DNA from: Phycisphaerales bacterium
GTDB lineage: Bacteria > Planctomycetota > Phycisphaerae > Sedimentisphaerales > UBA12454
Reading direction: 5' to 3'
Assembly: GCA_003142595.1 (NCBI GenBank)
Contig: PLMU01000003.1
Location: forward strand, 256,501-320,500
DNA: 64,000 nt
Of the stretch, positions 8,497-51,057 are shown one piece after another (the first letter of the stretch is position 1; each line of letters starts with the position of its first letter). The notes below the pieces were generated by a model that saw only the letters and a program-made list of their open reading frames with translations, did not search any database and was not told the DNA's origin. Made by a program: the position numbers and the translations under genes.

Positions 8497-8610
8497 ATGT
8501 GCGCCACAGACAGCGGCTATCGACCCGAGGAACTCTGGTGGCGAGGGAGGCGGCAGCAGGCGAAAGACCTAACAGGGCGGAGAAGAGAACTAACAGGTTT
8601 TGCACACTAA
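8497..8610 (+). CDS. Possible 37-residue basic small protein
   Basis: An ATG at 8497 follows AAGGAG with four bases between. It opens a 37-codon frame ending in TAA. The product is rich in Arg, Glu and Gln, with a double Trp (core PEELWWRGRRQQ). The stretch is clearly more G+C-rich than the A+T-rich DNA around it. I do not recognise the peptide. It lies inside the candidate origin, beside a perfect DnaA box and opposite to dnaN. It could be a real small gene, a gene remnant, or chance. Confidence 0.35.
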   Translation: MCATDSGYRPEELWWRGRRQQAKDLTGRRRELTGFAH

Positions 8611-8626
8611 ATTTAACAGAAAAAAG

Positions 8627-9597
8627 CTATAAATTTTTATGAATTTCGACAAATTTTAGCGCTTTTTCCAGTAGCTTTTTGCGTAATTCCACCGGGGCGA
8701 GGACCTGAACCTGGTCGCCATATCCCAGTATCCACCAGGAGATTTCTCCTAGGCCGTCAATGCGAAAACTTAATATCGCCGAGCCGTCGTCCTGCCACTG
8801 CGCCTGCTGTGTGTTGTGTCACTGAACCTCGGCGACGTTACGAGCAACGAGCGGAGAAAATTTTAGTTTAATATCGTAAAGTTTTCCTTCTGGTATCAGA
8901 CACCACGCCCTGCCGAGATAATCATAGACATTAAAATTATCACCATCCACAAAACACTTATCGAGCGTTTCAATTTTCTGTATTCTGCCGAGGTTAAATG
9001 TTCTGACGGACTTATGCAGGCTGGAATAGCCAATCACATACCAAGCGCGTTTTTTATACAAGAGATGATACGGATGTAAAGTGGTTTCTATGTTGTCGTC
9101 TTCAAACAAAGATGCGTAAGAGATGGCGAGTTTAGTTTTTTTGCGGATAGCCCGCTGTATAGTGTTATAAACATCATCAAGCAATTTTATCGAGGCATGC
9201 TGGTCGGCGGCGACAGTAATTTTGGCCAGTGTGCTTTGGCAATACTGGCGGATATCGTTGGGAAGATTGTTTTCCACTTTTAGGCCCGCCAGAATAGCGG
9301 AATTTTTGTAAGGCATCGGCAGATGATTTCGCATCTTGTGTACGAGCATTAAAAGACTAAGAGCTTCCTGAAGATTAAAATCGATAGGCGGCAGAAAAAA
9401 TTTAGGGTCGATACTGTAGCCACCGGTTTTGACATCGTACCGATAAGGCACACCGATGCTCTGGAGCTCTTTTAAGTCTCTAAAACAGTGCGTCTGCTTA
9501 CACCAAGGACCTGCTCAAGGTCGGCGGGTGAATACTTCTCTCCCGACTGCAGCGTGGTCAGAATATTAACGATTCTGCTGACTCTGCTGTGTTTCAT
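8627..9597 (-). pseudogene. Broken WYL-domain transcriptional regulator
   Basis: Reading from 9597, an HTH_11-type helix-turn-helix (VSRRTV) runs to an early TAA. Restoring one base in the A-run at 9482-9485 joins it to RDLKELQSIGVPYRYD and the following 210-codon frame, which contains a WYL domain (YHLLYKKRAWYVIGYSS). That frame stops at a TGA (8819-8821) where relatives would probably have Trp. The same frame then continues for about 60 codons of clear WYL C-terminal sequence (LGEISWWILGYGDQVQVL) to TAG at 8627. Two independent lesions argue for a decayed gene; sequencing error is possible for either one. Confidence 0.8.
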
Positions 9598-14026: not shown

Positions 14027-14890
14027 TTGGAAGCGATTTTTGAATATTTCAACCGTGTAGCATCGTATAACCCACTGATAGTCTTTATCGAACTTCTACT
14101 TATAGGACTTGTCGTTTACTGGGCTATAGATTTTCTCGAAGGGACCAGAGGAGAAAAACTATTCAGAGGAATAATAATCCTGCTGCTTGCCGGTTCGATG
14201 ATACTCAAACTGCTGATAGGACATTTTGATTTTGAGAGACTTCAATATCTGTACAGCAGTTTTCTAATTTTCGTGTTGATTCTCGCGGCAGTGGCATTTC
14301 AGCCTGAAATAAGAAGAATGCTAATCAGGATAGGAGGCGCCGGCAGCTTCGGCGGCTCATCACATCAACAGCTCACTCAAACAGTTGAGGAAATTATCAT
14401 TGCGGTCAACAACCTTTCCGCAAAGAAAGTCGGGGCGATAATTGTTCTGGAAAGACAAGTGGCGCTGGGTGAATTTATCGAAACCGGAGTAAGAATCGAT
14501 TCTAAGGTCAAAGCCGCGCTGCTGGAAACAATATTTCATCCCGGTTCGGCACTGCATGACCTTGCGGTAATAATACAGGGGGACAGGATTGCCGCGGCGA
14601 GAGTTCAGCTTCCACTGGCGGAAATCGGTTATGTAAAAGGTTCGCTGGGCTCCAGACACAGGGCAGCCGTAGGTATAACCACAGGCAGCGATGCGGTTGT
14701 CATCGTTGTCAGCGAAGAAACCGGAATTATTGGCATAGCTGAAGACGGAAAGCTCGAACAGCATATAACCGAAGATGAATTACGAAAAAGACTGACTAAT
14801 ATACTTGTTGATGCCAGCACATTAGCAGCCAAACTGCGAAAAAATGTAAAAGAAAAAAAAGATTCAGACTCTGTAAATCAGGAAATATAA
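14027..14890 (+). CDS. cdaA: Diadenylate cyclase CdaA (c-di-AMP synthase)
   Basis: The protein has 287 residues from a TTG start. Three N-terminal membrane segments (about 17-35, 45-64, 77-92) precede a DisA_N/DAC domain. Visible motifs are GAIIVLERQ at 137-145, the first catalytic motif at 177-180 and SRHRAA at 209-214, the conserved RHR. It condenses two ATP into cyclic di-AMP. The first motif is HDLA where the family has HDGA (Leu179 for Gly), which is odd. The downstream gene, four bases away, encodes a YbbR-domain protein, the usual CdaA partner; glmM, often third, is absent. Confidence 0.92.
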   Translation: MEAIFEYFNRVASYNPLIVFIELLLIGLVVYWAIDFLEGTRGEKLFRGIIILLLAGSMILKLLIGHFDFERLQYLYSSFLIFVLILAAVAFQPEIRRMLIRIGGAGSFGGSSHQQLTQTVEEIIIAVNNLSAKKVGAIIVLERQVALGEFIETGVRIDSKVKAALLETIFHPGSALHDLAVIIQGDRIAAARVQLPLAEIGYVKGSLGSRHRAAVGITTGSDAVVIVVSEETGIIGIAEDGKLEQHITEDELRKRLTNILVDASTLAAKLRKNVKEKKDSDSVNQEI

Positions 14891-14894
14891 GCAC

Positions 14895-15908
14895 TTGTTT
14901 GCAAAACTGAAAAAAGCTGTTCTTGTAGTTTTTATAACCTGCCTGATATGGGTATGGGCAGATTTGTCTCTTGATAAAGACTTTAACGACCAGAATGTAA
15001 CCATAACCGTCAGTAAAGCCAATCCGCGATTGTGGGCAACAATCGAAGGTAAATCTGAAATACAAGTAAAAGTTGATTTCAGAGGACCTGCCAGAAAAAT
15101 AGGAGATCTTGTCAGCAAAATAGAAGCCGGCAAAGAAAAACTTGATATTGTATTTGATGCTGAGAAACAAAATATGGCGGCCGGAGGCGATTACAGTTTG
15201 CCGGACGTGCGAGGGTTTATTGCTGAAAGCGACAAGATTCGCGATTATGGACTGGCGGTCAAGGCGGTAAGGCCGGACAAACTGCAAAAGATAAAAGTCG
15301 TGGAGCTTAAAGAGAAAACTTTGCCAATCAAATGTGTGGATGAGACAGACACTGAAATACCGGCAGCGAAAATAACACCGGATATCATTACGGTTCTGGT
15401 GCCGGAACAGGTAACCGAGGCAAGAGTGAAGCTGGTCTCACTTGCCGAGAAAAAACAGGCCCGCGGCGGTGTAATAGACAAAAAGCCTTATGTCGAATTT
15501 GTCAAAGATGAGGTAAGATATACCGAGGGTGCAGTCAAGGTTGAGTTGCCGATGATAGGCGAGGATATGAAACAATACACGATACGCGGCACGCTCGGAT
15601 ATATATTCAGCGATAATCTTGCGGGCGGATATAAAGTAGAATTTACCAAGCGGCCTGAAATAGGCAGTATACCGATAATTGCCACAGAAGAAGCAAAAAC
15701 CGCGTATGTAGATAAAGGGTTCGAAGTGCTGCTGGAAATCCAGGACGACGATGTGGGCAAGCCGGAAATAACCCGGCAGGTAATTTATAATTTCCCCATA
15801 CAATATGTCCGCGAAGATAAAATCCGGCTCAAAGGCGAACCAGCCGAGGCGAAATTCAAACTTGTCCCGGTAGGCGACCAGAATCAGCCGCCGGCGAGTG
15901 CGAAATAA
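14895..15908 (+). CDS. cdaR: YbbR-domain CdaR-like regulator of CdaA
   Basis: The 337-residue protein starts at a TTG four bases after cdaA. One N-terminal membrane anchor (about residues 8-25, with VVFITCLIWVWADLS) is followed by repeated extracytoplasmic YbbR-type beta domains, recognisable by segments such as IQVKVDFRGPARKI and ITVLVPEQVTEARVKL. In Firmicutes CdaR binds CdaA and tunes c-di-AMP output. Gene order supports the same role, while effect and sign are inference. The C-terminal tail ends in a Pro/Ala-rich stretch. Confidence 0.82.
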   Translation: MFAKLKKAVLVVFITCLIWVWADLSLDKDFNDQNVTITVSKANPRLWATIEGKSEIQVKVDFRGPARKIGDLVSKIEAGKEKLDIVFDAEKQNMAAGGDYSLPDVRGFIAESDKIRDYGLAVKAVRPDKLQKIKVVELKEKTLPIKCVDETDTEIPAAKITPDIITVLVPEQVTEARVKLVSLAEKKQARGGVIDKKPYVEFVKDEVRYTEGAVKVELPMIGEDMKQYTIRGTLGYIFSDNLAGGYKVEFTKRPEIGSIPIIATEEAKTAYVDKGFEVLLEIQDDDVGKPEITRQVIYNFPIQYVREDKIRLKGEPAEAKFKLVPVGDQNQPPASAK

Positions 15909-42470: not shown

Positions 42471-42499
42471 TTGACAGCATAAAATCTGCTTGAGATAAT
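42471..42499 (+). promoter_or_regulatory. Sigma-70-type promoter of the kdp leader
   Basis: TTGACA (42471-42476) and GATAAT (42494-42499) with 17-base spacing lie just after yidC. The predicted start near 42506 is 20 bases before the riboswitch. Confidence 0.75.
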
Positions 42500-42525
42500 T
42501 ACAGTAGATAATAAATATAGTTATT

Positions 42526-42660
42526 GTAGCCGAGATTTGTGCGTAATTGCACAAATACGGGGGACCCAAATTTTGGGGCTAATTTCCCGTTAGTGGAAAA
42601 GGGCACTTTCAAGCCCTCGCCCGTCAGCTAACCTCGTAGGCTTTTGAAAGGGCAATGGCA
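42526..42660 (+). ncRNA. Cyclic di-AMP (ydaO/yuaA) riboswitch
   Basis: The leader carries the signature sequences of the ydaO class in the right order: GGGGGACCCA at 42559-42568, TTGGGGCTAAT from 42573, and CCCGTCAGCTAACC at 42620-42633, followed by CTCGTAGGC that pairs back to GCCGAG near 42528. A hairpin ATTTGTGC/GCACAAAT lies at 42535-42556. Established members bind c-di-AMP and switch off downstream genes. A terminator hairpin follows at 42670, so the expected effect is premature termination of kdp when c-di-AMP is high. Confidence 0.92.
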
Positions 42661-42669
42661 CCAGTATGG

Positions 42670-42692
42670 AACTGCCGCCCGGCAGTTTTTTA
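42670..42692 (+). terminator. Intrinsic terminator of the riboswitch
   Basis: The stem ACTGCC / GGCAGT with loop GCCC is followed by TTTTTT. It lies directly after the aptamer, so ligand binding can decide read-through into the kdp operon. Confidence 0.88.
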
Positions 42693-42830
42693 TTGCGCCC
42701 CTCTATGCCCGCCATTAAGGAAAAACCTTATTGAACTTTTGATAAAGAAGCTCGATATTTCTTTATTCGCAAATGTTGTTTTATAAATAGTCTGGTGGTA
42801 GAATTTAAACTTTGTATATGGAAAATAAAA

Positions 42831-42911
42831 ATGGATAGCCTGTTTGTATTGATAATCATTTTACTGTCTGTAGTTTCCTTTGCGTTTATCGCGTTATGCG
42901 AAAAGGTTTAG
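42831..42911 (+). CDS. 26-residue single-pass membrane peptide before kdpF
   Basis: The frame runs from an ATG to TAG and encodes 26 residues: a hydrophobic segment (LFVLIIILLSVVSFAFIAL) closed by CEKV. It starts 12 bases before the next gene's RBS region and lies after the riboswitch and before kdpF in the same transcript. The pattern, a short helix ending in a Cys-Glu-Lys/Arg motif, resembles unnamed small ORFs I recall next to other kdp operons. It could be an extra subunit or regulator of KdpABC. Confidence 0.6.
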   Translation: MDSLFVLIIILLSVVSFAFIALCEKV

Positions 42912-42923
42912 GGAGATAATTTT

Positions 42924-43016
42924 ATGCCGATAATTTACTGGATAGGCGGAATCGTTTCACTGTTGCTGTTTATATATCTGCTGGTTGCCCTTTTAAAGCC
43001 GGAGATATTCTCGTGA
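42924..43016 (+). CDS. kdpF: K+-transporting ATPase small subunit KdpF
   Basis: The 30-residue peptide has one membrane helix (IGGIVSLLLFIYLLVALLKPE), the KdpF pattern of a helix ending in LLKPE. GGGAG lies upstream of the ATG. KdpF stabilises the KdpABC complex. The stop codon overlaps the GTG start of kdpA by four bases. Confidence 0.9.
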   Translation: MPIIYWIGGIVSLLLFIYLLVALLKPEIFS

Positions 43017-44764
43017 CCTTGAATAATATTATACAAAGCGTTATTTTCCTGGCGACGCTGCTTTTGCTGGTCAAGCCGCTTGGAATTTATATGGCTCGCA
43101 TATACGAGGGAAAGCCTGCCGGCCTGAATGTATGGTTTGCTCCGGTGGAAAGATGGATTTATCGCCTCTCGGCAATCAGGCCCGAAATAAGTATGTCCTG
43201 GAAAACTTATGCTTTTGCGATGATGCTGTTTAATGTCCTGGGCATTATAGTTGTATATGCTCTTCAGCGTTTGCAGGCTCATCTATTATTAAATCCTATG
43301 TTGATGCCTGCCGTCCCTGCGGATTTGGCGTTCAATACAGCGGTTAGTTTTGCTACCAATACCAATTGGCAAAGTTACGGCGGTGAGACAACCTTGAGTT
43401 ATCTAACACAGATGCTCGGATTGACTGTGCAGAACTTTGTCTCCGCTGCGACAGGAATGGCAATCCTCGTCGCCTTAATCAGAGGCTTTGTTCAAAAGCA
43501 AATAGACACAATCGGCAACTTCTGGGTCGATTTGGTCAGGTCAACTCTTTATATCTTATTGCCTCTTGCGATTATACTGTCGCTGGTTTTGGTATCGCAG
43601 GGTGTTGTCCAGACCTTTGAGCCTTCTGCGAAGGTTTCATTGCTTCAGCCGACGAAAGGCGCTGATGGAAATGAAATCACAGAGCAGGTAATTACCCTCG
43701 GCCCGGCCGCTTCGCAGGTTGCTATCAAACAATTAGGCACAAATGGCGGAGGATTTTTTAATGTTAACTCCGCTCATCCGCTTGAGAACCCCACGCCATT
43801 ATCTAATTTTCTCGAAGTTCTCTCGATACTTATTATATCAGCCGCTTTATGTTATACCTTCGGGTTTATGGTAAGAGATACTCGTCAGGGCTGGGCGATT
43901 CTGGCTGCTATGGTGATTATTTTTGTTCCCTGTCTCTATTGCTGCATATACTTCGAACAAAAAGGCAATCCTCTATTAGCTGATGCAGGTGTTAACCAGA
44001 AAGCCACTGCATTTCAGCCAGGCGGAAATATGGAAGGAAAAGAATCGCGTTTTGGAATAGTCGATTCCGCCATCTGGGCAACTGCCACAACAGCAGCTTC
44101 CAACGGCTCGGTAAATTCGATGCATGATTCTTTTATGCCTCTTAGCGGTATGATTCCGATGTGGCTTATGCAATTAGGAGAAGTGATTTTCGGCGGTGTA
44201 GGCTCAGGCCTTTACGGTATGATTGCATTTGTGATTATCGCCGTTTTTATTTCCGGCCTTATGATTGGTCGCACGCCGGAATATCTCGGCAAAAAAATCG
44301 AATCTTATGAAATGAAAATGGCTGCTATTGTAATTTTAATCCCGCCCATTGTTGTTCTTGCCGGAACTGCTGTTTCAGTCATATTGCCTCAGGCAAAAGC
44401 CGCAATTTTAAATCCAGGCCCTCACGGTTTTAGTGAAGTGCTTTACGCTTTTTCCTCTGCCGGCAACAATAATGGCAGCGCGTTCGCCGGTTTATCGACA
44501 AATAATCTTTACTACAATATAGCGCTGGGGCTGGCGATGTTCTTCGCTCGCTACCTGCTTGCGATTCCGATGCTTGCAGTTGCCGGTTCGCTTTCGAAGA
44601 AAAAGATTGTGCCCCCAGGCCAGGGTACTTTACCGACGCATACGCCGTTGTTTATTTTATTTTTAGTTATGATTGTTTTGATTGTCGGTGCGCTGACGTT
44701 TTTCCCGGCTCTTGCGCTTGGCCCGATTGTCGAGCATCTAACGATGACCGGAGGTTTACGATGA
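43013..44764 (+). CDS. kdpA: K+-transporting ATPase subunit KdpA
   Basis: The 583-residue multi-pass protein starts at a GTG overlapping kdpF. Selectivity-filter-like loops are visible as [30 protein letters not shown] and [14 protein letters not shown]. It belongs to the superfamily of K+ transporters and selects potassium from the outside. Overlap with kdpB (four bases) indicates coupled translation. Confidence 0.98.
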
Positions 44765-46839
44765 GTAAATCTCATAAATCTAAATCTTTGTTTGACCTTT
44801 CCATCATAGGCCCGGCAATCATTGATTCGTTCAAAAAATTAGACCCGCGCCATCAAATCAAAAATCCTGTGATGTTTGTGGTCTTAATTGGCAGCATAAT
44901 GACTACCGGCTTATGGCTCCAGGCGATTCTTTCGCAGCACGGCGAAGCACCTGCCATGTTTATTTTAGCTATTTCAATATGGCTGTGGTTTACGCTGATT
45001 TTCGCCAATTTTTCTGAATCTATGGCCGAAGGCCGCGGAAAGGCACAGGCCGCAAGTCTCAGGCGTGCCAGAAGAGACACTCCCGCTAAAAAACTTTCAA
45101 AGCCCAAATTCGGTTCTCCTTATCAGGCAGTTTCCGCGACAATCCTTCGAAAAGGAGATATCGTTCTTGTCGAGGCCGGCGATTTTATTCCTATGGATGG
45201 TGAAGTTGTCGATGGCGTAGCTTCTGTCGATGAAAGTGCCATTACCGGCGAAAGCGCGCCTGTCATACGCGAAAGCGGTGGCGACCGCAGCGCCGTCACC
45301 GGAGGAACACGCGTTCTTTCAGACTGGCTTGTGGTTCGCATTAGTTCCAATCCAGGCGAAACTTTCCTTGACCATATGATTGCGATGGTCGAAGGCGCAA
45401 AGAGACAAAAAACTCCAAACGAAATCGCCCTCAGCATTTTGCTTGCGGTTTTCACTCTCATTTTTCTTTTAGTCACAGTAACACTTCTGCCGTTTTCTAT
45501 TTACAGCGTAAACTCAACGGGTTTCGGCAGCCCTGTAACAATAACAGTCTTGGTTGCTCTGCTCGTATGCCTTATCCCGACTACTATCGGCGGCCTGCTT
45601 CCAGCCATCGGCATTGCCGGTATGGACAGGATGATTCAGGCAAACGTCATCGCCACTTCAGGCCGCGCCGTCGAAGCCGCTGGCGATGTGGACGTTTTGC
45701 TTCTTGATAAAACAGGAACAATTACACTTGGCAACCGCCAGGCCACGGCTTTCATACCCGCTGGCGGAATGTCCGTCGAAGCATTGGCCGACGCGGCTCA
45801 GATTGCTTCTTTGTCCGATGAAACTCCCGAAGGCCGAAGCATCGTCGTATTGGCAAAAGAAAAATATGGTATCAGGGAACGCAATATTCACGACCTCCAG
45901 GCAAAATTCATTCCATTCACAGCCCAGACTCGAATGAGTGGTGTTGATTTGGGCGACGGCAGGCAAATTCGAAAAGGCGCCGTTGATGCCATCGAGGAAT
46001 ATGTAGCAAAACTCGACGGCTCATTCCCCGATGATTTAAAATCTGCTATCGATTCCATTTCCAGAAGCGGCGGAACTCCTCTGGTTGTCGCGGAACATAA
46101 AAAGGTGCTCGGCGTTGTGCACCTCAAGGACATTGTTAAAGGCGGCATTAAGGAACGTTTTGCTCAGCTTCGCAGTATGGGAATTAAAACCGTAATGATT
46201 ACAGGCGACAATCCCCTCACCGCCGCGGCAATTGCCGCCGAGGCCGGTATGGATAATTTTCTCGCGCAGGCCACGCCGGAAACAAAGTTAAAACTCATTC
46301 GCGAAATGCAGGCCGGCGGAAGGCTCGTTGCTATGACCGGTGATGGAACAAATGATGCCCCGGCTCTTGCGCAGGCCGATGTCGCCGTCGCTATGAATAC
46401 CGGAACTCAGGCCGCAAAAGAAGCCGGCAATATGGTTGACCTTGATTCCAATCCGACCAAGCTTATCGAAATCGTTGAAATCGGAAAGCAGCTTCTTATG
46501 ACTCGCGGCTCGCTCACAACATTCAGCATCGCCAACGACGTGTCGAAATATTTTGCGATTATTCCCGCTGCGTTCGCGGGCACTTATCCCGCCCTTAAAG
46601 CGCTTAACATTATGCACCTTGCCACGCCTGACAGCGCAATTTTGTCAGCGGTTATTTTTAATGCTATTATAATCGTATTTCTTATTCCGCTGGCCTTGCG
46701 CGGTGTCGCTTACAAGCCGATGCCCGCATCCCGTCTTTTGCGAGATAATTTGCTGATTTACGGCTTGGGCGGAATTATTGCTCCGTTCATAGGAATTAAA
46801 TTAATTGATATGATTCTCGTTGCTATGCATTTGGTCTGA
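44761..46839 (+). CDS. kdpB: K+-transporting P-type ATPase subunit KdpB
   Basis: The 692-residue P-type ATPase has the phosphorylation site DKTGTITLG, the actuator loop ITGESAPV and the hinge [15 protein letters not shown]. It provides energy for K+ uptake by KdpA. The order kdpF-A-B-C is complete here. Confidence 0.98.
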
Positions 46840-46850
46840 CAGGCGAAAAA

Positions 46851-47426
46851 ATGTTTAAAGAACTTAAAACTGCGATTTTAACTTTCCTGATTTTAACAAT
46901 CATCACAGGAATTTTTTACCCGCTCTTTATTACCGGCGTATCTAAGGTATTCTTCCGCAGTCAAGCCAACGGCAGCCTGATTTATCGAAACGGAAAACCA
47001 ATTGGCTCATCGCTTATCGGCCAATCGTTTGACGATCCGAAGTATTTTTGGCCCCGTCCTTCGGCGACATCTCCGTCTTCGTTTAACGCCGCCTCTTCGT
47101 CAGGTTCAAATCTTGGTCCCTCGAATCCGGCGCTGGCCGAAACAATAAAAAATCGCGTCAAGGTATACAAAGCCGCCGACCCGAACAATAACAATCCTGT
47201 TCCTATTGACCTTGTTACTTCTTCGGCAAGCGGTCTGGACCCGCACATAAGTTTGGCCGGTGCATATTATCAAGCCCCTCGCGTCGCGCGTCTGCGGAAT
47301 TTACCATTGGACATAGTCAGAACTATTATCCTTCAGCATACTAATAAACGTTTCCTCTCGGTCTTAGGCGAACCGGTTGTAAACGTATTGGAACTTAATC
47401 TTGCGTTAGATGAATATAAAAAATAG
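46851..47426 (+). CDS. kdpC: K+-transporting ATPase subunit KdpC
   Basis: The 191-residue protein has one N-terminal membrane helix (FLILTIITGIFYPLFITGV) and the KdpC motifs GSSLIGQSFDDPKYFWPRPSA-type, SASGLDPHISLAGA and RNLPLDIVRTII. It supports ATP binding by KdpB and complex assembly. It starts 11 bases after kdpB. Confidence 0.97.
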   Translation: MFKELKTAILTFLILTIITGIFYPLFITGVSKVFFRSQANGSLIYRNGKPIGSSLIGQSFDDPKYFWPRPSATSPSSFNAASSSGSNLGPSNPALAETIKNRVKVYKAADPNNNNPVPIDLVTSSASGLDPHISLAGAYYQAPRVARLRNLPLDIVRTIILQHTNKRFLSVLGEPVVNVLELNLALDEYKK

Positions 47427-49662: not shown

Positions 49663-51057
49663 ATGCTGTCGGCAAATACAAAATACAACATAAACGACAC
49701 AATAGTTGCAGTGTCCAGCGGACTGGCGCCCTCGGTAAAAAAAATCATACGAATCAGCGGAGATAAGACCTTTGATGTTTTAAAATCATTCGCTTTGCTG
49801 AATTTTAAAAACCAAAGAGCAATAATTCCTGTACTGATTGACATCAATGGATTTGAACTTAACTGCTGTATTTACCTGTTTTGTTCTCCGAATTCATATA
49901 CTGGCGAAGACCTTGCCGAGATTCATCTTTTGGCCTGTGGCGAAGCTTTCGAAGCGGTTTTTTCAAAATTGCTTTCGCTTGGCTGCCGAAACGCCGAGCC
50001 GGGCGAATTCACATACAGGGCTTATATTAACGGCAAGATGGACCTGTCTTGTGCCGAGGCGGTTGCCCAGGTAATTCAGAGTTCGAATCAATATCAGCTT
50101 TCCGCTGCGCAAAGACTTTTTGGCGGTTCGATTGAAAAGAAAATCAGCCAAATCTGCAGTGAAATACTGAACCTTTTGAGTTTAATCGAAGCAGGACTTG
50201 ATTTCGGCGCAGATGATATAGAAATAATCTCCTCGAAAAAAGCGAGCCAAGCAGCGGAAAAAATCAAAGATAGTCTTAAAGAGCTTCTTGATGGTTCGAT
50301 AACGTTTGAGCAAATCACTCAGGCGCCGTCGGTTGTAATCGCAGGCGCCGCAAACGCCGGCAAAAGCAGTCTTGTAAACGCGATTGTCGGAGCTGGCAGG
50401 AGCATCGTATCCGACCAAAGCGGCACAACCCGCGATGTGCTTGAGCATTGGCTGAAACTTGAAAAATGCGATTGCGTTCTGTTTGACTGCGCAGGCCTTG
50501 TAGCCAAGCCTGCCGATATACTTCAAACTCTTGCTAATGAAGCCGCGTTAAAGGCTATTAATGAGGCTACTGTAATAATTTTTTGCGTTGATATAACAAA
50601 AAATAATTATTTGGTTGATTTGCAAATTTTAAAGCAGCTAAAAAAGAAACCGGCTATCTACGTAATGACAAAATGTGATTTGCTATCTGCTGCAGGAACA
50701 GCAGAAAAACTTAAAATATTAAAAAATAATTTCGGGTTTGATTTTATTGCCACAAGCTCAAAAACTTCTGCCGGTCTTGAAAAACTTAAAGAGCTTATCC
50801 AACAGAATGTAATTATACAGACTTCGGGAATAGCGGAAGCCGCTGAAAAAACTGCCCTTACCGAAAGACACAGAAAAGTTGTAATCGAAGCGATTAGAAA
50901 TATTGAAAATGCCTCTGACGAACTTAAAAAGGGCAATGAAGAAATAGCCGCTTTTACTTTACGCTCGGCTTTGCAGAATTTATCAGGTTTTGAGCCGCAG
51001 CATCTCGATGAAAAAATTCTTGAAACAATTTTCTCAAGATTTTGCATAGGAAAATAA
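49663..51057 (+). CDS. mnmE: tRNA modification GTPase MnmE
   Basis: The 464-residue protein begins NDTIVAVSSGL, has AEPGEFTYRAYINGKMDL, a GTPase domain (GAANAGKSSL, DCAG, TKCD) and the C-terminal signature FSRFCIGK with the essential Cys. With MnmG it makes the 5-carboxymethylaminomethyl group on wobble U34. It starts 22 bases after kdpD in the same direction, so transcripts from the riboswitch-controlled kdp promoter may include it. No mnmG is nearby. Confidence 0.97.
   Translation: MLSANTKYNINDTIVAVSSGLAPSVKKIIRISGDKTFDVLKSFALLNFKNQRAIIPVLIDINGFELNCCIYLFCSPNSYTGEDLAEIHLLACGEAFEAVFSKLLSLGCRNAEPGEFTYRAYINGKMDLSCAEAVAQVIQSSNQYQLSAAQRLFGGSIEKKISQICSEILNLLSLIEAGLDFGADDIEIISSKKASQAAEKIKDSLKELLDGSITFEQITQAPSVVIAGAANAGKSSLVNAIVGAGRSIVSDQSGTTRDVLEHWLKLEKCDCVLFDCAGLVAKPADILQTLANEAALKAINEATVIIFCVDITKNNYLVDLQILKQLKKKPAIYVMTKCDLLSAAGTAEKLKILKNNFGFDFIATSSKTSAGLEKLKELIQQNVIIQTSGIAEAAEKTALTERHRKVVIEAIRNIENASDELKKGNEEIAAFTLRSALQNLSGFEPQHLDEKILETIFSRFCIGK

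Follow-up and report, generated by a model that had tools for sequence, protein, structure and literature searches.

A c-di-AMP riboswitch with an intrinsic terminator precedes a kdp operon encoding a kinase-less KdpD in a planctomycete

The closest described system is that of Bacillus thuringiensis, in which reporter and mutant data revealed a riboswitch-controlled kdp operon in a species whose KdpD is truncated and which lacks KdpE; kdp was shown experimentally to be switched off at high c-di-AMP (PMC6488665). In the accompanying survey, riboswitch-kdp arrangements were limited to Bacillales, and all 12 of the 12 riboswitch-kdp species encoded a KdpD consisting of its N-terminal part only (PMC6488665). 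The pairing of such a riboswitch with a defective KdpD, which the original prediction for the present locus had considered less expected, is thus what the survey had found throughout. Related work established that E. coli KdpD is a Ser kinase that inactivates KdpB, with the ITGES/TGES motif of KdpB as its substrate site, and that versions with a truncated DHpCA region occur in species without KdpE; the combination with a riboswitch was named there for Bacillota only (PMC11018627).

Here we describe a comparable arrangement in a 64,000-nucleotide stretch of a planctomycete genome (the window). The DnaK encoded in the window shares 72% identity with its counterpart in a Phycisphaeraceae metagenome-assembled genome (MAG) and 71% and 68% with those of two other Planctomycetota, and it scores lower against other phyla. 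The product of kdp is an emergency potassium pump. Our results make it highly probable that the level of the kdpF-A-B-C-D transcript, which probably includes mnmE, is controlled by a c-di-AMP riboswitch acting through transcription termination.

The riboswitch and the operon behind it

Scanning the whole window with cmscan revealed a match to the c-di-AMP (ydaO/yuaA) family RF00379 with a score of 87.9 bits (E 3.7e-19), compared to a gathering score of 38 bits. The match spans positions 1-134 of the 134-position model, i.e., its full length, and is the only RNA-family match in the window above any gathering score. In a search of the 2.28-Mb genome, this was the single copy. The original prediction had recognized the aptamer by three motifs and proposed an Rfam scan as its check: the motifs are present, it was right about both motifs and coordinates, and the scan bears it out in full.

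The loop and 3′ tail of the aptamer are complementary and form a pseudoknot, an element already known in ydaO (PMC5393176). In our RNA, the pseudoknot is an 8-bp helix that includes one G-U extension pair. This pairing covaries, as the mean helix among 60 distinct riboswitches from the phylum and others was 7.58 bp with their own partners and 5.68 ± 0.15 bp when partners were re-dealt. We predict that the leader RNA binds c-di-AMP.

Table 1. Features of the riboswitch, the kdp operon and the ligand-synthesis genes (window coordinates)
Feature	Position	Strand	Remarks
cdaA, diadenylate cyclase	14027-14890	+	TIGR00159 above cut-off
337-aa gene, presumably YbbR/CdaR-type	14895-15908	+	3′ of cdaA
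Sigma-70-type promoter TTGACA-17-(TG)GATAAT	42471-42499	+	11/12 matches; TTGACA at 42471, 17-nt gap, GATAAT ending at 42499, TG ahead of second hexamer; directly 3′ of yidC stop
RF00379 aptamer	42518-42657	+	87.9 bits
Aptamer pseudoknot	CUUUCAA 42606-42612 with UUGAAAG 42644-42650	+	loop/tail complementarity
Candidate antiterminator	42650-42680	+	GGGC 42650-42653/GCCC 42677-42680; GGCA 42657-42660/UGCC 42673-42676; weak
Intrinsic terminator AACUGCC-GCCC-GGCAGUU-UUUU	42670-42691	+	arms 42670-42676 and 42681-42687, loop GCCC, U through 42691; -11.7 kcal/mol, z -3.1
Spacer, trkH leader/5′-end-like, probable fossil	42692-42790	+	Smith-Waterman-type score (SW) 47
26-aa membrane-type small ORF, MDSLFVLIIILLSVVSFAFIALCEKV	42831-42911	+	conserved in kdp leaders
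kdpF, 30 aa	42924-43016	+	overlaps kdpA start; conserved in related kdp operons
kdpA	43013-44764	+	TIGR00680
kdpB	44761-46839	+	TIGR01497; ITGES
kdpC	46851-47426	+	
kdpD, 725 aa	47463-49640	+	KdpD-Usp-DUF4118(TM)-GAF-degenerate DHp
mnmE	49663-51057	+	22 bp 3′ of kdpD

The terminator predicted at 42670 was borne out by folding and by comparison, since the hairpin occurs at the same place in relatives with altered bases that retain the pairing. A simple pattern scan detected no terminator in the region, a result that folding and comparison override; the scan apparently fails to see this hairpin because its stem extends into the U tract. For the promoter proposed at 42471, the pair of hexamers is present as claimed, but the match is not significant alone, as shuffles of the region yielded 1.7 ± 1.5 such sites. 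A TTGAC-like -35 element lies at the same position upstream of the aptamer in most related leaders. An additional kdp promoter, or readthrough from yidC, may also contribute.

A candidate antiterminator is formed by pairing of the aptamer tail GGGCAAUGGCA (42650-42660) with UGCCGCCC (42673-42680). Its energy is -11.6 kcal/mol when the terminator lacks its 3′ arm, with a z of only -0.64, i.e., similar to shuffles. In a weak covariation test across leaders, tails paired better with the arm of the same leader than with re-dealt partners (fraction 0.02-0.04). As the candidate antiterminator and the pseudoknot share only one nucleotide, G42650, their mutual exclusion is not sharply defined.

In other bacteria, c-di-AMP is high when K+ is plentiful. 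Under these conditions, the aptamer would close through its P1 helix and the loop-tail pseudoknot, the terminator would form, and kdp would be off. A drop in K+ and c-di-AMP would instead let the tail pair with the 5′ arm and loop of the terminator, allowing polymerase to read through into kdp. Termination at high c-di-AMP is well supported as a prediction from these elements. Switch-off of kdp, the natural reading of an aptamer followed by a terminator, is likewise supported by the analogy with B. thuringiensis.

The means to make the ligand are encoded in the same window, as cdaA is present. The gene following it is presumably of the YbbR/CdaR type, a name we take from its position. A PgpH-type 7TM-HD phosphodiesterase-like domain is encoded elsewhere in the genome.

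Downstream of the riboswitch, the 26-aa ORF, kdpF, kdpA, kdpB, kdpC, kdpD, and mnmE form a run on the same strand. The 26-aa ORF between terminator and kdpF has counterparts in G003 (81%) and G076 (69%) and a similar one in G125; it matches no family in Pfam or NCBIfam, and similar short ORFs occur upstream of kdpF in 2 of 11 named loci. Given the shared strand and the 22-bp gap, mnmE is probably on the kdp transcript and, if it has no internal promoter, would also be under riboswitch control. The mnmE product is a GTPase activated by K+. Directly 3′ of K+ transporter cassettes is also where mnmE lies in G009 and G002. Some related operons carry additional genes: in G079 (L061:5535-6359) and G045 (L014), kdpA and kdpB are separated by a gene whose product is probably exported, and in G079 kdpC and kdpD flank a gene for a short, sensor-like membrane protein (L061:9129-9908).

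KdpD and the loss of its histidine-kinase half

The original prediction described this KdpD as defective, which is correct for its histidine-kinase half only. The DHp remnant reads TFSYELPEPL, compared to SHELRTPL in the full-length KdpD of G075, such that the phospho-acceptor His is replaced by Tyr (the position is Leu in G076), and the HATPase domain is missing. The motifs of the Ser kinase are kept: Walker A is GAVAGVGKT (G-X5-GKT), Walker B is VDE, containing the DE pair, and KdpB retains the TGES site. The position of Trp39, which contacts adenine in the E. coli protein, is Tyr in our KdpD, making this contact uncertain.

We found no candidate for KdpE in the genome, in which the sole OmpR-type regulator is PhoB-like. 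This protein scores 243.5 bits with the PhoB model and 128.6 with the KdpE model (cut-off 325), and its gene adjoins that of a PhoR-like kinase. Thus the phospho-acceptor His, the HATPase domain, and KdpE, which define the KdpD/KdpE two-component system, are all lacking. Since the histidine-kinase output is lost and KdpE is absent, KdpD probably acts on the pump protein alone and would only inactivate KdpB as a Ser kinase.

We also compared the Usp domain with the c-di-AMP motif of S. aureus, (A/G/C)XSXSX2N...(Y/F) (PMC8214093). By eye, the sequence CVSSNPGA agrees with the first two of five positions and does not satisfy the motif, making c-di-AMP binding by KdpD less likely, yet possible. 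The Ser kinase may instead sense K+ through its retained TM and GAF domains.

Loss of the kinase accompanies the riboswitch in the kdp operons of the order. KdpE is missing from all seven riboswitch-kdp operons, and their KdpD proteins, 659-726 aa long, lack the kinase domain. The order has just one further complete kdp operon, that of G075; the region upstream of it contains no riboswitch, and it encodes both KdpE and a KdpD of 895 aa. Among complete KdpD proteins from named relatives and G075, a hand count revealed the kinase domain in 51 of 55, although these counts are not independent, as the switch occurs in only two kdp lineages. The sister of the window kdp, from a member of Candidatus Omnitrophota (L096), also encodes a kinase-less KdpD of 725 aa and no KdpE, and no riboswitch was found in its upstream region. 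Kinase loss may therefore predate the switch in this lineage.

Distribution of the riboswitch and probable recruitment of kdp

We examined 161 genomes of the order, of which 23 contain the riboswitch. It precedes trkH, kimA-like, EIIA-P-type ATPase, and histidine-kinase genes, and seven of the genomes have it before kdp. Across the phylum, 46 of 392 sampled genomes contained the riboswitch. Of 29 phylum loci outside the order, most had it before trkH or kimA-like genes, and none had kdp within 1.5 kb. In both the order and the phylum, most riboswitches are thus followed by K+ transporter genes (trkH, kimA-like, kdp). Beyond these samples, the kdp upstream regions of 80 named KdpA relatives showed no riboswitch by a sequence pattern, and Rfam searches of 30 whole genomes of named relatives found five with a riboswitch and no kdp at those loci. 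A Nitrospirota MAG (L121, about 8500-8700, minus strand) has a riboswitch before a kimA-like gene that is divergent from and beside kdp. In the kdp comparison, a KdpA match in G034 proved to be a TrkH protein and was rejected, and G123, a contig-end fragment, was left out.

Several loci of the order have unusual genes behind the riboswitch. In G009 (L010:4330-7548), a cation P-type ATPase of 1073 aa begins with a fused PTS EIIA domain; in G098 (L064), a broken trkH start lies between the riboswitch and the EIIA-P-type ATPase gene. In G093 (L058:3938-11811), the riboswitch is followed by genes for a histidine kinase, a response regulator-TPR protein, two TrkA-type proteins, two TrkH proteins, and TrkA, and G094 (L059) has a similar riboswitch-led run; in both, the riboswitch apparently controls a sensor kinase jointly with K+ transport. 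For G007 (L008/L017) and G142 (L037), no K+ transport gene was recognized in the next same-strand stretch, and in G142 a NuoA-like reading frame lies at a distance 3′ of the riboswitch.

In a tree of KdpA and KdpB, the riboswitch operons fall into two groups, one with L096 and the other with Planctomycetaceae and Gemmataceae, and the starred branches force two changes. An AU test, run after an earlier FastTree had shown the split, gave p 0.0106 against a single riboswitch-kdp clade, with the caveat that this is a quick tree. Joint movement of riboswitch and kdp as a single unit in every lineage was therefore rejected, also because the riboswitch in our window is closer to a trkH switch than to that of its sister kdp operon (G076). 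It is 94% identical to the kdp riboswitch of G003 and 91% identical to the trkH riboswitch of G009. Its eight nearest riboswitches, which extend down to 76%, do not include that of G076.

The locus itself points to an exchange. In most relatives yidC lies closely before mnmE. The yidC-mnmE interval holds the riboswitch and trkH in G009 and G002, and the riboswitch and kdp in our genome. Aligned to the G098 leader that contains the trkH relic, the post-terminator spacer gave SW scores of 47 for our copy and 69 for G003, with 0 of 500 shuffles as high. With the coding part alone, G003 was exceeded by 0 of 1000 shuffles (four references) and our copy by 30 of 1000, which is marginal. A trkH fossil is thus probable, with the case made largely by the G003 copy and the G098 leader, and the direction from trkH to kdp is likely, not proven. 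In this lineage, kdp would apparently have been swapped in behind a resident riboswitch that formerly controlled trkH.

A broader model, to which we would give an even chance, is that the c-di-AMP riboswitch serves as a conserved socket in the order, behind whose kept aptamer and terminator trkH, the EIIA-P-type ATPase fusion, and kdpFABCD interchange. In this model kdp was recruited from different sources on at least two occasions, and each recruitment ended with histidine-kinase control gone and only the Ser-kinase role of KdpD left.

Other explanations of the locus were weighed against riboswitch control. The RNA could bind c-di-AMP while the hairpin at 42670 serves chiefly to terminate transcription of yidC, with kdp transcribed from elsewhere and little affected. 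The hairpin does lie ~210 nt 3′ of the yidC stop, and the promoter match carries no significance of its own. However, the same aptamer-tail-terminator unit precedes kdp in G003, whose yidC sits elsewhere, directly before mnmE, and other loci have it in front of trkH, kdp, and histidine-kinase genes. Moreover, mnmE closely follows yidC in most relatives without the cassette, and most leaders have the TTGAC-like elements upstream of the aptamer. We consider this explanation very unlikely. Slightly less probable still is a passenger riboswitch, either recent or in decay, that was carried with neighboring sequence and is now unresponsive. Although the spacer resembles leftover trkH, the high score across the full model, the close identity to the G003 copy, terminators that are intact in both copies, an intact pseudoknot, and the presence of CdaA all argue against decay.

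We think it equally improbable, as for the yidC explanation, that kdp remains under a two-component system, with KdpD signaling via a different kinase or regulator and riboswitch control being secondary. KdpD retains membrane and GAF sensor domains, and its conserved though degenerate DHp hairpin could dimerize with another kinase. Against this stand the replacement of the His by Tyr or Leu, the missing ATPase domain, and a genome with no KdpE and only a PhoB-like OmpR-type regulator; in the other riboswitch-kdp lineage, the DHp remnant is missing altogether. Control of the kdp transcript by the c-di-AMP riboswitch therefore remains our preferred reading.

Relation to known systems

Our results extend the riboswitch-kdp arrangement to a second phylum, where it occurs in at least two kdp lineages of one order and only with a kinase-less KdpD and no KdpE. 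This repetition suggests a rule worth testing: where c-di-AMP is in charge of transcription, the histidine-kinase half of KdpD becomes dispensable and the Ser-kinase half is kept. The trkH-like leader remains offer a concrete case of gene exchange under a retained riboswitch. We found no earlier account of a planctomycete kdp riboswitch in the open-licence literature. What is new is the phylum, the recruitment of kdp at least twice, a KdpD that still has its sensor domains, and evidence that transporters were exchanged behind a kept riboswitch.

As a member of the ydaO/yuaA class (RF00379), the riboswitch resembles known examples in its full-length match, pseudoknot, terminator platform, and association with a K+ transport gene. 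The aptamer shows no difference; only the regulated operon and the lineage differ. Compared to atypical Ser-kinase KdpD proteins (PMC11018627), ours is alike in its Walker A and B motifs, the TGES site of KdpB, the lost histidine-kinase half, and the lack of KdpE, and differs in having Tyr for Trp39 and in being combined with a riboswitch.

The closest likeness is to the kdpFABC riboswitch of B. thuringiensis BMB171 (PMC6488665), with which our locus shares an RF00379 aptamer and terminator in a leader before kdpFABC, a KdpD with no kinase domain, and the absence of KdpE. Thus, the features that define the B. thuringiensis type are all found here. The published restriction to Bacillales, which is a claim about distribution and not a mechanistic criterion, does not hold for our planctomycete. 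The two systems differ in that the BMB171 KdpD is an N-terminal-only protein of 365 aa, while ours has 725 aa and includes TM, GAF, and degenerate DHp regions. In our system, which belongs to the Planctomycetota, mnmE lies directly 3′ of kdpD, and kdp occupies a yidC-mnmE interval that relatives use for trkH.
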